A DNA stretch of 33,026 nucleotides from Candidatus Saccharimonadota bacterium. Its GTDB lineage: Bacteria; Patescibacteriota; Saccharimonadia; Saccharimonadales; UBA4665. Positions within the stretch are counted from its first letter, which is position 1. Each line of letters begins with the position of its first letter. Shown in pieces: positions 1,654 to 30,500 of this stretch. The notes under the pieces were generated by a model. The model was not told the DNA's origin. It did not search any database and worked only from the letters and a program-made list of their open reading frames with translations. The position numbers and the translations under genes were made by a program. The stretch is from NCBI GenBank assembly GCA_003133385.1, contig PKXF01000004.1:46004-79029 (forward strand), written 5' to 3'.

Positions 1654-2816
1654 TGGGAACTGCCATGCCCAAGCTTGATAAAACAATACACCTGCCACTT
1701 TCGTATGAACGGCGTACCGAATCTGAAGCCTTGTTTAACAGTATGGGCGATGGCGCCATAACCACCGACGAATTCGGCAAGATTACCCGGGTTAACCCGG
1801 CCGCCCAACAAATTCTTGGCTACAAAGAGTCCGAGCTCATCGATGCCTGGCTCCCGAAAAAGATCATTGCCTTGTCATTTGACGGCAATATCATAAATCT
1901 TATTGACCGGCCGATTACCAAAACGTTCTTAACGGGTAAACCAATCTCCGCCAAGATGTACTACCGCCGAAAGGATGGGGAAAGAGTGCCGGTGGCCGTC
2001 AGTGCTTCGCCGATTATGTTGAACGGCAAACCGCTTGGGGGCATCGAAGTCTTCCGCGACATTACGCTTGAGCAAGAGGTTGACCGTATGAAAAGTGAAT
2101 TTATTTCATTGGCTTCACACCAGCTGCGCACGCCGCTGTCTGCCATTAAAACCTACACCCATATGCTGGCAGAGGGCTACATGGGCCCGTTGAATGCCGC
2201 CCAAAAGAAATCACTCAATACTATTGTTACGGCTTCCAACCGCATGAATGAGCTGATTAGCACCTTGCTAAACATCACCCGGATCGAGAGCGGCACGATT
2301 GAAATGACACCCAAAATGGTCCACATAGGGGCGGTCATTAACGAAGTGTTGCCTGAGTTACTTATTATGGCCGAGGAAAAAAAGATTACAGTTACGCTTG
2401 AAGTATCTAACACCGTACGTAACCGCATCAGGACCGACCCGTTAATAGTAAAAGAAGTTATAACTAACCTGGTAAGCAATGCCATTAAATACACGCCTAA
2501 GGACGGGGCAGTTGAAATTATGGTCAAGCCGCGGGCCAATGAAATATTGGTCGAAGTCCGTGATAGCGGCTGGGGCATACCGGCTTATGCCCAAGACCAG
2601 ATATTCAGCAAGTTTTTCCGTGGCCAGAACATTGTTAAGCGCGAAACCAACGGCACGGGACTGGGTTTGTACCTCGTAAAAGGCCTCATCGATGTACTAG
2701 GCGGTAAAATATGGTTTACATCCCAGGAGACCGTAGGCACCAGCTTTTTCTTTAGCTTGCCCCGCTCCAAACGCCCCGGTCCCACCCAAAAAATAGATAA
2801 AGGCTATAATTTGTAA
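1653..2816 (+). CDS. Soluble PAS-domain sensor histidine kinase
   Basis: A 387-residue cytosolic sensor kinase. A PAS domain covers roughly residues 20-138 (FNSMGDGAITTDEFGKITRV through VFRDITLEQEV). The dimerisation and phosphoacceptor helix contains ASHQLRTPLSA with His156. The HATPase domain shows the N box (NLVSNAIKYTP, Asn272 and Asn276), the G1 motif DSGWGIP (Asp304) and the G2 motif NGTGLGLYL (about 333-341). No signal peptide or membrane helix is visible. The start overlaps the previous stop; ATG at 1665 (Met5) is an alternative. A receiver-only response regulator follows 82 bases downstream and is the likely phosphotransfer partner. The PAS ligand is unknown, but redox or oxygen sensing would suit the nearby respiratory genes; that last point is inference. 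Confidence 0.93.
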   Translation: MGTAMPKLDKTIHLPLSYERRTESEALFNSMGDGAITTDEFGKITRVNPAAQQILGYKESELIDAWLPKKIIALSFDGNIINLIDRPITKTFLTGKPISAKMYYRRKDGERVPVAVSASPIMLNGKPLGGIEVFRDITLEQEVDRMKSEFISLASHQLRTPLSAIKTYTHMLAEGYMGPLNAAQKKSLNTIVTASNRMNELISTLLNITRIESGTIEMTPKMVHIGAVINEVLPELLIMAEEKKITVTLEVSNTVRNRIRTDPLIVKEVITNLVSNAIKYTPKDGAVEIMVKPRANEILVEVRDSGWGIPAYAQDQIFSKFFRGQNIVKRETNGTGLGLYLVKGLIDVLGGKIWFTSQETVGTSFFFSLPRSKRPGPTQKIDKGYNL

Positions 2817-2827
2817 GAAATGCAACA

Positions 2828-2855
2828 GTGACAGGCGCTCCGACTATGCTATAAA
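2828..2855 (+). promoter_or_regulatory. Candidate promoter for the receiver gene
   Basis: GTGACA at 2828-2833 and TATAAA at 2850-2855 are separated by 16 bases, each one mismatch from the sigma-70 consensus. Transcription would begin near 2862, giving a leader of about 36 bases with the Shine-Dalgarno GGAGG. This would uncouple the response regulator from the upstream kinase message. Confidence 0.4.
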
Positions 2856-2868
2856 TATATATGAAGAA

Positions 2869-2877
2869 ACGCTTAAG
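2869..2877 (-). promoter_or_regulatory. Shared intergenic motif CTTAAGCGT, copy 1
   Basis: The minus strand reads CTTAAGCGT in the leader of the receiver gene. The same nine bases occur upstream of cyoA and between the flavin dehydrogenase and ndh. A function as an operator is inference. Confidence 0.25.
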
Positions 2878-2897
2878 AAACTAAGTGGAGGCAAAAA

Positions 2898-3314
2898 ATG
2901 GCACGTGTATTAGTAGTTGAAGATGACCGCGATCTTAATAAAGCCTACTCTATTATCCTCAGGCATGAAGGCCATGAAGTTGTCTCGGCATTTGACGGCC
3001 AAGAGGCACTCGACAAGTTAACAGACTTTGAACCGGATTTGGTATTACTCGATCTTCTAATGCCGATCATGGGCGGTCTGGAGTTTTTGCAGCAATGGGA
3101 GAAATCCAAGAGGCAGCCAAATGTCAAAATCTTAATTTTCACCAACATGGAAAACTCGCCCGAAGTCGCTGAAGCCTACAAACTGGGGGCCGAACGCTGC
3201 ATTATTAAATCCTGGACCGCGCCCCACAACCTGGCCCGGGTGGTCAGCGACAGCTTAGCCGGCACAAGTAAGACCAAACGGTTAAAGGCTTCAAAGACTA
3301 AGACGCCAGTGTAG
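2898..3314 (+). CDS. Stand-alone receiver-domain response regulator
   Basis: A 138-residue single-domain CheY-like protein. It has the acidic pair Glu8-Asp9-Asp10 region (VVEDDRD), the phosphoacceptor Asp52 (LVLLDLLMP), the switch Thr82 (ILIFTN) and the conserved Lys104 (CIIKS). After residue 120 there is only a basic, probably disordered tail (TKRLKASKTKT) and no DNA-binding domain, so output is by protein contact. GGAGG lies just upstream of the start. It follows the PAS kinase and is probably its phosphorylation target. Its last 17 bases overlap the convergent CRP-type gene, so the two transcripts are antisense at their ends. A candidate promoter in the gap could let it be made separately from the kinase. 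Confidence 0.92.
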   Translation: MARVLVVEDDRDLNKAYSIILRHEGHEVVSAFDGQEALDKLTDFEPDLVLLDLLMPIMGGLEFLQQWEKSKRQPNVKILIFTNMENSPEVAEAYKLGAERCIIKSWTAPHNLARVVSDSLAGTSKTKRLKASKTKTPV

Positions 3315-23873: not shown

Positions 23874-24614
23874 TTACTTCTTCTTTTTAGTGGACTTTTT
23901 GGCAGCCTTTGGCTTAGGGCTAGACTGGATAGTTACTACCTCGCGGGTAGTTGAGAATGAGGCCATGCTCAAACCGCCTAGCATGCCGCTGTCGTCTGAC
24001 TCGACAAATATTACCCGGTAAAGCAAGGTTCCTACAACCGCGCCAAGTACTGGACCAAGCACGTAGGTGCCCCATACCCAGGCACGTGCGCCAAGCGCAA
24101 CAGCCGGGTTCAAAAGGCCAAGAGCGCCTGAGGATGCGGCGACGCTACCAATCATCAATCCTAAACCGGCAAAGCTGGCAGTGACTGCCCGGCTCAAGCC
24201 TTTGTAGACCGTTGCGGCAAAGACAAAGGCAAATATTCCGGCACCCACTGCTTCAGCGGCAAGTATCCGGGCCGTGAAGTGCCCCCCGATAGGTCCGAGG
24301 TGATTGTTAACTAGATAGGTGTACACATAGTAAGCTCCCCAACCGCCAAGTAATTCAGCGCCAACGTATGCGATGGCTGTTACTGTTGACACCTTACCAA
24401 CAAACCATTGGCCGATGGTAATAGCTGGGTTAAAATAACCGCCTGAGGCTTCACCAACCGTAAACGATATGAGCATGAATGCCAGTCCTACAGCGGCAGC
24501 CACGAAAAGCGGGTAGCCAATTCCGGAGTGCTGGACACTTAATATCATTACCGTTAACAAACCCGCACCAATAAACTCTGCTACTAAAGCAGCTACTTTA
24601 CGTCTTCCAAACAT
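23874..24614 (-). CDS. Aquaporin-like MIP channel with altered selectivity filter
   Basis: I chose ATG at 24614 (246 residues): GGAGG at about 24622-24626 lies eight bases upstream, and a longer frame from GTG at 24629 would use that same Shine-Dalgarno as coding sequence. Six membrane helices and two re-entrant loops are visible. The first NPA is in SGGYFNPAITIGQW (Asn62-Pro63-Ala64) and the second in GLLNPAVALGA (Asn169-Pro170-Ala171). The residue after the second NPA is Val172, whereas almost all MIP channels have Arg there. The cytoplasmic end is very Lys-rich (KPKAAKKSTKKKK). Passage of water or small neutral solutes is expected, but the filter may be wider or less polar. It lies downstream of the carbonic-anhydrase-like gene on the same strand. 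Confidence 0.88.
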   Translation of the reverse strand: MFGRRKVAALVAEFIGAGLLTVMILSVQHSGIGYPLFVAAAVGLAFMLISFTVGEASGGYFNPAITIGQWFVGKVSTVTAIAYVGAELLGGWGAYYVYTYLVNNHLGPIGGHFTARILAAEAVGAGIFAFVFAATVYKGLSRAVTASFAGLGLMIGSVAASSGALGLLNPAVALGARAWVWGTYVLGPVLGAVVGTLLYRVIFVESDDSGMLGGLSMASFSTTREVVTIQSSPKPKAAKKSTKKKK

Positions 24615-24644
24615 TATTGGAACCTCCACTTAGTTAATGTCATA

Positions 24645-24693: not shown

Positions 24694-25605
24694 CTACGTT
24701 TCTTCTTTGAAAACAGGCATGCCCTTTGTCACAATACCAGCCCCGACGTGCAAGGCATCGTCAGCAAAACCAATGAGAATCCGCAGTCTTTCTTCGGGGC
24801 TGCCGCCTAGTTTGTAAGCCAACTGATGCATTTTAGCTTGAGTGACCGAGAAAGCCTGCTGGCCAGTATTTTCATTAAAGGCATTGGTGGCAAAGCCGCG
24901 GTTTTCACTTGTAACAACGTAAATACTTGAACCGTTATGACCACGGGTTTCGTGGTCGTCAGGGTCATCGGCTAGGAACGAAAAATTTTGGGGGAAGCGA
25001 CTTATAAGATAATCCTGGTGCTTGGCAGGATCCCAGCCGCCATAAAATCCTGACTCTAGGCGAGCCCGTTTGGTATTAGTGTTGCGTTGTATATATGCAT
25101 TGTGATCATAATCTGCCGAAAAGGGAACAAAGAGTCCTATGCCCGCCACAAGACTCTCGTGAGGAATCTCATGCGCTACCGATTTTTCTACGCTGCCGCT
25201 CGCGCCACAGACAGCATGGCCAGCGTCCTCTTCGCCAAACTCTTTATATAGGAAGGGAGAAACTATTTCGTAGGCCTCCCACATACTTTTGGCATCTTTG
25301 ACTATAGCGGCATCGGCCGAAACTAACGCCTTTGCAGTCGCCAAACCCAGACCTCCAAATAGTTGTGACACTATGCGTTCACGTAAAACCAGCGGATCAT
25401 TTGTGCCATCAGCCAACCCAATCGCCGGACGATCGTCGCCGCACCCCGCAGTATTAGCTTGGGTAAGTGGCAACGTATGAACGGACAATTGATAAGCGTG
25501 CTCCTGTTCTGCCTCGGGACTACCTAGAGGATGTCGTTGGCCAACTTTGCCAAAAGCAAAATCCAGCTCGGCTAACTTTGCGACGCTGGCTTGTTCTACG
25601 TGCAT
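24694..25605 (-). CDS. Putative metalloprotein resembling cadmium-type/beta carbonic anhydrase
   Basis: I chose ATG at 25605 (303 residues) because GGAGA lies seven bases upstream; an ATG at 25635 would place that site inside the gene. The sequence has the pattern C-x-D-x-R (Cys55, Asp57, Arg59 in AGCGDDRPA) and H-x-x-C-G (His130, Cys133 in GHAVCGASG), which is how beta carbonic anhydrases bind zinc and place the Asp-Arg dyad. The spacing of 75 from Cys to His exceeds the usual 55 or so. A later segment (AFNENTGQQAF to KLGG) recalls the end of diatom cadmium carbonic anhydrase. No signal peptide is visible. I do not recognise it beyond this, and general similarity to the family is unproven. 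It could hydrate CO2 or be an unrelated metalloprotein. Confidence 0.45.
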   Translation of the reverse strand: MHVEQASVAKLAELDFAFGKVGQRHPLGSPEAEQEHAYQLSVHTLPLTQANTAGCGDDRPAIGLADGTNDPLVLRERIVSQLFGGLGLATAKALVSADAAIVKDAKSMWEAYEIVSPFLYKEFGEEDAGHAVCGASGSVEKSVAHEIPHESLVAGIGLFVPFSADYDHNAYIQRNTNTKRARLESGFYGGWDPAKHQDYLISRFPQNFSFLADDPDDHETRGHNGSSIYVVTSENRGFATNAFNENTGQQAFSVTQAKMHQLAYKLGGSPEERLRILIGFADDALHVGAGIVTKGMPVFKEET

Positions 25606-25698
25606 ATCAAATTCTCCGTAAGACCTGTGAACCATACTTTGCTCGTCTTAAACCTTTAGGTATTAAAATCTTAAGGGCTATACTACACTTCTTTGGCA

Positions 25699-25793: not shown

Positions 25794-26108
25794 GTGAGAG
25801 ACAGGCAAAAATCTCCTAAAGAATCAGTGGCAGGTATTGAGCCTGAAGTTCTTATAAGTATATATACAGCAGAGCACCGGCCGACTCATGATCAGAAATG
25901 GGCCGAATTAGACGCTGCTGATGCGCCTTTTGCCCGTGCTGCGCTGGCCCGGGCTGAAGAGATCCGGGCTGAGGGAACGGACCCTGGCAATGCTTATTTG
26001 CAGGGTATCGCCGATTTTCACGCCGCTCAGTCCAGACAGCAACTGATTCAAGAGATGGTAGATTTTGATCCTCAAACAATAATCCGGGTAGCGCCTGAAC
26101 CCGTTTAG
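25794..26108 (+). CDS. Small acidic helical protein, unknown function
   Basis: A 104-residue soluble protein starting at GTG. An N-terminal polar stretch is followed by Glu/Ala/Arg-rich helices (AELDAADAPFARAALARAEE, then IADFHAAQSRQQLIQEMVDF) and a short Pro-rich end. No cysteine, no membrane segment and no catalytic motif are seen. I do not recognise it. It is the only rightward gene between the aquaporin region and the right end of the atp operon, its stop is 12 bases from the atpC stop, and two CRP-like palindromes lie upstream. The two-site promoter makes regulated expression likely. The GTG start and moderate AAGGG site leave some doubt about the exact beginning. Confidence 0.6.
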   Translation: MRDRQKSPKESVAGIEPEVLISIYTAEHRPTHDQKWAELDAADAPFARAALARAEEIRAEGTDPGNAYLQGIADFHAAQSRQQLIQEMVDFDPQTIIRVAPEPV

Positions 26109-26124
26109 AAACTAACTGGTTCAG
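26095..26124. terminator. Weak hairpin between the gene at 25794 and atpC
   Basis: CTGAACC and GGTTCAG form a seven-base stem, with TTAG/CTAA pairing possible inside. A short TGCTTTTGG follows on the plus strand and no T-run on the minus strand. It overlaps the ends of both convergent genes. Confidence 0.35.
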
Positions 26125-26549
26125 TGCTTTTGGTGACGCCGCTTGAGACCAGCGACTTGGAGACGGATAGACTGGCGGTCAACAAGCGTCTGGGCATGCT
26201 CTAAGCTAACCTGGTCCTTGGCTTCAGCTTTCATCTTGTGCGCACGATCCAGCGCCTTTTGAGCCTCGGCTTCGTTAATGTTATCAGCATGATCGGCTTC
26301 ATCAACTAATACGCGGACAGTATTGTGGTCAATCTCAATCACCCCGCCGTTCGTAGCAAAGTATTCGCGTTGTGCATCGGAGTCTCTTGGCTGTCGGCGA
26401 ATAGCTATCGCTCCGGTGGTGGCAACGCTCACCAGCGGCATATGGTCTTGCAGTATGCCGATCTCGCCGTCCAGTGTCGGTAGGATGACTTCGTAGACAT
26501 CGTCATCGAACTTTTTACCGCTGATACTAACGAGTTGGAAGTTAAACAC
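26121..26549 (-). CDS. atpC: ATP synthase F1 epsilon subunit
   Basis: A 142-residue protein. The N-terminal beta sandwich (about 1-88) has FQLVSISGKKF, LPTLDGEIGILQDHMPLVS and the family pattern YFATNGGVIEIDHNTVRVLVD. The C-terminal helical hairpin (about 92-135) is present, so it could inhibit ATP hydrolysis. It is the last atp gene, six bases after atpD. The frame starts at GTG; GGAG is about 17 bases upstream and weak. A convergent gene ends 12 bases from its stop. Confidence 0.95.
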   Translation of the reverse strand: MFNFQLVSISGKKFDDDVYEVILPTLDGEIGILQDHMPLVSVATTGAIAIRRQPRDSDAQREYFATNGGVIEIDHNTVRVLVDEADHADNINEAEAQKALDRAHKMKAEAKDQVSLEHAQTLVDRQSIRLQVAGLKRRHQKH

Positions 26550-28937: not shown

Positions 28938-30500
28938 TTACTCCTTGCCGGCCTTGTCGGTTTTTTTAGTCTCAACCTTATAGCTGGCAGTAATCGCTTT
29001 GGCAACCTTTAAGACACTGGCATTTTGGGCATCTGTCGGTTTATCACCTGAATTCAACTCTTCGGTCAGCTTGGCATGCTTGGCTTTCAGTTCACGGTGA
29101 ATGGCTTCTTCTGCTAACTTCACTTTTTCAAGTGGTACCTCATCAAAACAACCATTATTGGCAGCATACAAACTGGCGTACATTTCCCAGATGGAGTAGG
29201 GGCTATACTGAGCTTGTTTGAGTAGCTCCGTCAACCGTTGACCGCGTTCAATAGTCTGGCGCGTTTCAGCGTCAAGGTCGGTCGAGAATTGGCTGAAAGC
29301 CGCTAGCTCACGGAATTGAGCCAGGTCCAGTTTCAAGCCACCACCTACAGACTTAATTGCTTTACTTTGAGCGTCACCACCGACCCGTGAGACACTGAGG
29401 CCGACGGAAATAGCCGGACGGATACCTTGGTAGAACAAGTTCGTCTCCAAGAAGATCTGGCCGTCAGTAATAGAGATGACATTAGTCGGAATATAGGCAC
29501 TAATATCACCAGCTTGAGTTTCGATGATCGGCAAGGCCGTTAAGCTACCGGCTCCGAGCTTGTCGCTCAGCTTGGCAGATCGTTCCAGTAGGCGAGAGTG
29601 CAGATAGAAGACATCACCTGGATAGGCTTCACGGCCTGGCGGGCGACGAAGCAGCAGGGACATTTGACGGTAAGCAGCAGCATGTTTGGTCAAGTCATCG
29701 TAAATAATGAGCGCATGCTTGCCGTTGTCGCGGAAGTATTCACCCATTGATGAACCGGAGTATGGTGCCAGGTATAATAGGGCCGCCGGATCAGACGGAC
29801 CAGTTGCCACAATTATCGTTTGCTTCATAACGCCTTCACGCGTTAATCGCTCTTTCAAGGCAGCAATCTTCGATAACTTCTGACCAATCGCTACATATAC
29901 GTTAATAACACCGGTTTTTTGCTTAGCCTGGTTAACCATAGTATCAACGGCAACAGCAGTTTTACCCGTTTGTCGGTCACCAATGATCAACTCCCGCTGT
30001 CCGCGACCAATTGGTACCGTCGCGTCGACAGCCATGATGCCCGTCATCATAGGCTCATGGACATGCTTACGATCGAGAACACCCGGAGCATGGCGTTCTA
30101 CCCGATAGGTCTGCTTGGTTTTAATTGGATCGCCACCATCGAGCGGGTTACCAAGCGGATCAACAACACGGCCGACAAGCTCCGGCCCAACCGGTACTTC
30201 CAGGACGTGACCGCTCAAGCGGACTTTTGCTCCGGCTTTGACGGATGCATCTTCGCCGATGAGCACTGCACCGATTTCGTCTTCGCCGAGATTCAGGGCA
30301 AAGGCGGTGACTTTGCTGCCGTCTACTCCCTCAATTTCAAGCATTTCATTGAAGCCAGCTTTGGCAAGACCATATACCCAGGCGACACCGTCGCCAACCC
30401 GGGTTACGACTCCGACGTTTTCAATGTCCGGACGTTGCTTCAGTTCGGCAATTGCCGAGCGAATGTCTTCTGATAATTCTGTGATCGATAATTCTGGCAC
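28938..30500 (-). CDS. atpA: ATP synthase F1 alpha subunit (regulatory)
   Basis: A 520-residue non-catalytic nucleotide-binding subunit. Walker A is [15 protein letters not shown] (about 169-183), with Gln rather than the beta-type Gly-Val, and the arginine finger lies in [13 protein letters not shown] (about 370-382). The start is GTG (GTGCCAGAA), preceded by AAGGA nine bases upstream. The last about 40 residues ([17 protein letters not shown] onward) form a polar extension rich in Lys. It follows atpH by five bases. It pairs with beta to form the F1 head and its N-terminus contacts the delta subunit. Confidence 0.98.

Follow-up and report, generated by a model that had tools for sequence, protein, structure and literature searches.

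What kind of protein is encoded by an open reading frame for 303 amino acids that carries the residues of a carbonic anhydrase metal site and that standard database searches fail to name? The gene lies on the minus strand of the window, the whole 33,026-nucleotide stretch of Saccharibacteria DNA analysed here, and occupies positions 24694-25605, stop codon included, reading from the ATG at 25605. A likely ribosome-binding site for this start, GGAG at 25614-25617 (minus strand), can be read from the sequence eight bases before it; a longer form starting at 25635 is a possible alternative. The codons for C55-G-D57-D-R59 (25429-25443, minus strand) fall on conserved columns and would specify a first metal-binding cysteine and an Asp-Arg pair. 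Those for H130-A-V-C133-G134 (25204-25218, minus strand) would specify the metal histidine and, after a loop of two residues, the second metal cysteine. Both motifs sit exactly where the original prediction had located them, and the protein has no cysteine besides C55 and C133. Further along the chain, H223 (codon at 24937-24939, minus strand) is placed by alignment on a G-x-H element found likewise in the cadmium carbonic anhydrase of diatoms (CDCA). The histidine of this element is kept in 74 of 75 family sequences, and one alignment placed H218 there instead of H223.

The motifs C-x-D-x-R and H-x-x-C-G are those of beta carbonic anhydrases. The pair, separated by 20-150 residues, appeared in none of 20000 shuffles of the window protein and in none of 2279 non-family ORFs from the fetched loci (at least 60 amino acids, all six frames, overlapping loci counted). 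The window gene is under selection, since its product is 54% identical in amino acids to that of its nearest relative, L003, whereas agreement between the two genes at fourfold sites is limited to 27 of 88.

Family membership and predicted fold

Searches made with the window protein alone returned little. Its best Pfam match, to DUF6986 (E 0.025), fell below the cut-off; within a limit of E 10 neither the zeta-class model PF18484 nor the beta-class model PF00484 matched, and PF18484 found nothing in the window's genome either. No match was obtained in NCBIfam or, by phmmer, in the PDB, and a search of genome contigs with the single sequence yielded no relative. Among 392 genomes of the order, the protein found itself and three others (L003, 55% identity; L002 and L004, 28% each). 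A four-row profile recovered itself and one more sequence (L097) from 379 genomes of the phylum and no chain from the PDB; the four-row alignment found nothing in viral contigs.

Relatives detected by other routes connected the protein to the zeta class. Of 294 genomes sampled from the order, PF18484 matched 53 at E 1e-3 or better, 35 of them over the cut-off, and a scan of named genomes with family patterns gave 29 loci, assigned by title to Candidatus Saccharibacteria or Saccharimonas (24), Patescibacteria (1) or simply "bacterium" (4, including L074). Run on the ORFs from the loci, an HMM built from 30 ORFs found by PF18484, with the window subfamily left out, picked up the window protein at E 4.2e-6; it missed L002, one of the three nearest relatives. 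Alignment with hhalign against 49 relatives scored 95.1% for the single sequence, 96.9% after addition of L003 and 98.6% with L003 and L002, against at most 1.0% for reversed controls and at most 1.7% for the best of 30 column shuffles of each; a separate comparison with four rows gave 98.9%. A profile of 29 relatives run against the whole PDB matched the CDCA entries 3boh, 3uk8 and 3bob at E 5.8e-14 to 4.2e-12 (next match, 0.33), with C-x-D-x-R, the metal histidine, the cysteine and G-x-H aligned together. Over 258 genomes of the phylum, the 29-row family profile matched six genomes of the same order and missed the window's own. The window protein is best read as a highly diverged zeta-class relative, neither a beta carbonic anhydrase nor a founder of a new class; where the original prediction had contemplated a new class of enzyme, the data place a divergent branch near a known one.

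Among the same 258 genomes, weak partial matches to the family occur outside the order, in three genomes belonging to other families of the phylum (G532, G534 and G618). In genome G102, the family gene (locus L011, 1318-2226) is interrupted by an in-frame TAA. Locus L043 has a tandem pair of family ORFs in the same orientation (65-808 and 821-1765), an arrangement reminiscent of the repeats of diatom CDCA1.

An AlphaFold2 model of the window protein, computed from an input alignment that already held 25 relatives, reached a pLDDT of 77.4 and a pTM of 0.81. VIA-align, which re-examined the 592 candidates supplied by Foldseek and is not an independent search, matched this model to CDCA1-R1 (3boh_A) at Z 9.7 (rmsd 3.6, 177 aligned of 213), with the next match at 3.1; the match spans residues 11-303. 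No CDCA figured among the best 50 of Foldseek's 90 matches, and no beta carbonic anhydrase among the matches listed for the model by either program (for Foldseek, the best 50 of 90). The model of a mainstream relative, L074, whose alignment included the window protein as one row, had a pLDDT of 90.2. With it, Foldseek returned CDCA chains at E 4.7e-6 to 1.6e-4, and VIA-align placed five CDCA entries at Z 15.3-15.8, the next being 2.6. CDCA structures are part of the AlphaFold training set. From the matches of the two models it follows that the family has the zeta fold, as predicted, and that the model of the window protein shares it. Sequence profiles, predicted fold and gene position (see below) thus all back the carbonic-anhydrase-like metal site and the likeness to the diatom cadmium enzyme that had been suggested at the outset.

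Compared with CDCA1 of Thalassiosira weissflogii (3bob, 3boh, 3boj, 3uk8 and 7bez), the window protein is alike in the fold of its model (Z 9.7, against 15.8 for the relative) and in possessing the Cys-x-Asp-x-Arg motif, the metal histidine, the second cysteine and the G-x-H element. It differs in being bacterial, in lying below detection by PF18484, in having two instead of nine residues between histidine and cysteine, and in the size of its domain, about 300 residues against about 210. It also consists of one domain, whereas CDCA1 is described in a section of a 2015 review as having three repeats (PMC4413181). With the CDCA-like family of Saccharibacteria matched by PF18484, it shares the position after the atp genes, the length, the invariant residues and a profile match of 95.1-98.6%, yet it is only 28-55% identical even to its three nearest relatives. 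Its loop is of two residues where the family mostly has 11, and it has lost residues common in the family: the glutamate two positions after the conserved histidine (HxE), an asparagine, and the aspartate and tryptophan of VDxW.

The metal site and its shortened loop

Conservation was scored over 75 sequences (an initial 72, minus five fragments, plus eight added). The metal histidine and the second cysteine are present in all 75. The first cysteine, the aspartate and the arginine are found in 73; the two sequences gapped there (L105 and L106) hold CIDGR elsewhere in the alignment. A second conserved histidine is kept in 74 and a phenylalanine in 73. When several ORFs overlapped one match, preference was given to the one with C.D.R, so the invariance of that motif is partly a matter of choice, while the metal histidine and second cysteine were unselected. 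Loss of these residues in homologues, which the original prediction had named as the observation that would speak against it, was not what we found: ligands and Asp-Arg pair are kept across the 75 sequences. The ligand set of zeta carbonic anhydrases, Cys-His-Cys in that order, thus appears to be present in the window protein, as judged by its alignment with CDCA through the relatives, and the aspartate and arginine that follow the first cysteine in these enzymes are present as well.

The stretch between the metal histidine and the second cysteine counts nine residues in CDCA (H-GDHSSDMLG-C), where it forms the exchange hinge; this hinge is absent from the window protein. The corresponding loop measures 2-3 residues in seven of the 75 sequences and 8-24 in the other 68, the commonest length being 11 (43 sequences). 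One of the seven short-loop rows, L111, entered the set by position and motif without an HMM match. Its ORF (2309-3175, minus strand), with C-x-D-x-R and H-x-x-C, may represent an extreme relative or be unrelated.

On the tree, the seven short-loop rows require four changes, and the starred branches force two. Some branches are long (6.95 for L111, 4.95 for L048, 3.16 for the window clade), which makes the placement of the short-loop sequences unsure. With this reservation about long branches, the short loop seems, from the sequences, to have arisen more than once, and a single shortening event was set aside.

Passages of the review cited above report that altering two glycines flanking the hinge stretch of CDCA1-R2 abolished metal exchange, and that a region lying, by its numbering, within the hinge stretch moves when the metal is absent (PMC4413181). 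Read with the glycine result, a loop of two residues leads to the prediction of a form in which metal exchange would be difficult.

A gene beside the ATP synthase operon

Upstream of the window gene lies atpC (26121-26549, minus strand), followed by atpD, atpG and atpA up to position 30500. A small divergent ORF of 104 amino acids (25794-26108, plus strand), with no Pfam match, lies between atpC and the zeta-like gene; L003 (phmmer 1.3e-12) and L002 (7.5e-5) have it in the corresponding position. The next gene downstream, after a gap of 64 bp, encodes an aquaporin of the MIP family (23874-24629, minus strand; PF00230, 50.1 bits), and the two could be co-transcribed. Aquaporin and atp neighbours at other loci were sought by tblastn with the window's own proteins, a procedure that divergent genes can escape; names for the atp and UvrD genes were assigned by eye.

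In a set of 58 loci, one per genome, 36 have atpC upstream in the same orientation. The 22 without it comprise 17 with fewer than 1000 bases of upstream sequence and five with 1041-1356 bases. Among the 29 named loci, atpC was found in 23; two are too short (L077 and L086), and four (L083, L084, L085 and L094) lack it over 3.9-6 kb. The two counts are not independent, since 21 of the 29 repeat genes of the 58. Of the 58 loci, 29 have an aquaporin gene downstream in the same orientation; it is absent despite at least 1000 bases in 21, the sequence is short in seven, and in one the gene is elsewhere. The gap between the two genes ranges from 50 to 168 bases across loci some of which had been chosen for their aquaporin. 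The aquaporin neighbour pointed out in the original prediction, as a channel that might carry CO2 or water, is therefore real and recurrent, but its adjacency says little about function, because MIP proteins are present in 261 of the 294 genomes sampled from the order. Co-occurrence gave no support to a specific partnership (261 genomes with MIP against 53 with PF18484), and that idea was dropped.

Genomes lacking a PF18484 match were represented by 20 intervals, hand-picked by aquaporin position on the understanding that two draws of 294 genomes are the same. Nine of them held a full-length family member by HMM, two held remnants and nine gave no HMM match. PF18484 hence undercounts the family. 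The nine intervals without an HMM match include L111, with its motif-bearing ORF, and three that lack atpC (L107, L108 and L109). In some genomes, among them those of L115 and L116, atpC adjoins the aquaporin gene and the family gene is absent. The remnants, at L117 (1533-1820) and L104 (2297-2635), are short stretches between atpC and aquaporin that show signs of decay. Such remnants and absences indicate that the gene is dispensable in parts of the order.

No other carbonic anhydrase turned up in the searches made. PF00484, run across the order, gave no match over the cut-off in 294 genomes and a single weak one with an internal stop; in the window's own genome neither this model nor PF00194, PF00132 or PF08332 matched. 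The kind most widespread among bacteria was thus not found in this group of tiny parasites, whose main carbonic anhydrase may be the present family.

Proposed function and competing explanations

Homology, the match of the predicted fold, conservation and gene position lead us to regard the window protein, with a probability of roughly three in four, as a carbonic anhydrase of a Saccharibacteria species that resembles the zeta class and consists of a single domain. From these data we infer how it might bind its metal, catalyse and serve the cell. C55, H130 and C133 would hold one metal ion and a water molecule, the metal being probably Zn2+ and possibly Cd2+. D57, paired with R59, would help set up the metal-bound hydroxide which, by homology with CDCA, would attack CO2 to form bicarbonate. 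With two residues separating H130 from C133 and no flexible hinge for swapping zinc and cadmium, the metal would be expected to be fixed and tightly held. In the cell, the enzyme could speed the equilibration of CO2 and bicarbonate, contributing to pH balance and to bicarbonate supply. Parts of a study of a Saccharibacteria strain report that its ATP synthase is dispensable and speculate that it runs backwards against acid stress; carbonic anhydrase goes unmentioned in those parts (PMC10633639). A carbonic anhydrase beside the ATP synthase operon would fit a role in pH balance, although neighbourhood is no proof.

That the motifs arose by chance in an unrelated protein might be argued from the want of any significant database match for the single sequence. 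The profile match by hhalign and the fold match rule this out for practical purposes: homologues and fold agree, and the motif pair never appeared in the shuffled or unrelated sequences. The idea of a distant beta-class enzyme takes its appeal from the two motifs, and above all from the His-x-x-Cys-Gly spacing, which had originally been read as a beta-like zinc motif; the CDCA repeat itself is described, in a section of the review, as a possible mimic of a beta carbonic anhydrase dimer (PMC4413181). We consider it very improbable nonetheless. PF00484 is silent up to E 10, 75 positions separate the first cysteine from the histidine, and the match to the CDCA fold covers nearly the whole chain, from residue 11 to 303. 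Moreover, the spacing proves to be a shortened loop confined to seven family sequences, the other 68 having 8-24 residues at this place.

Other explanations accept fold and site and question the reaction. CS2 or COS can serve as substrate for beta-type and zeta enzymes, and the great divergence of the window subfamily (a branch of 3.16), together with the loss of some conserved non-ligand residues, would suit a change to such a small heterocumulene or to some otherwise different reaction. We think this unlikely, as the CO2 site retains every ligand together with its Asp-Arg pair, and the genome gave no match to any of the four other carbonic anhydrase families for which it was searched. Fast divergence, the remnants in L104 and L117 and the absence of the gene between atpC and aquaporin elsewhere could also point to a zeta-fold protein that binds metal for a structural, storage or regulatory purpose and no longer catalyses. 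This too appears improbable, given that purifying selection is strong and that D57 and R59, which are not ligands, are conserved like the ligands, if partly through ORF selection. A zeta-class-like carbonic anhydrase thus stays the preferred reading.

The family behind the window protein is a more interesting fact than the window protein itself. The titles and the beginnings of abstracts in the open-access literature searched contained no description of a bacterial zeta carbonic anhydrase. Homologues of CDCA1 had been identified only in diatoms according to a passage of the 2015 review (PMC4413181), and the relevant portion of a 2020 table enters the zeta class under diatoms alone (PMC7215798). 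We tentatively advance, as a proposal for and against which the odds are nearly balanced, that zeta carbonic anhydrases, far from being peculiar to diatoms, form a bacterial family that is well established, serves Saccharibacteria as their main or only carbonic anhydrase and is kept at the ATP synthase locus; that several lineages, including the window's, trimmed the hinge to the beta-class spacing and so gave rise to a natural fixed-metal form; and that bacterial genes of this kind may be the ancestors of the diatom ones. The short-loop branch offers a natural way to learn which portion of the enzyme allows cadmium and zinc to be exchanged, and its location by the ATP synthase genes hints at a testable part in pH balance for the family. 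A bacterial zeta family would open the question of cadmium use by bacteria and, in replacing the beta class in many of the ultra-small organisms that make up one order, would shift the presumed home of the zeta class and perhaps its origin.
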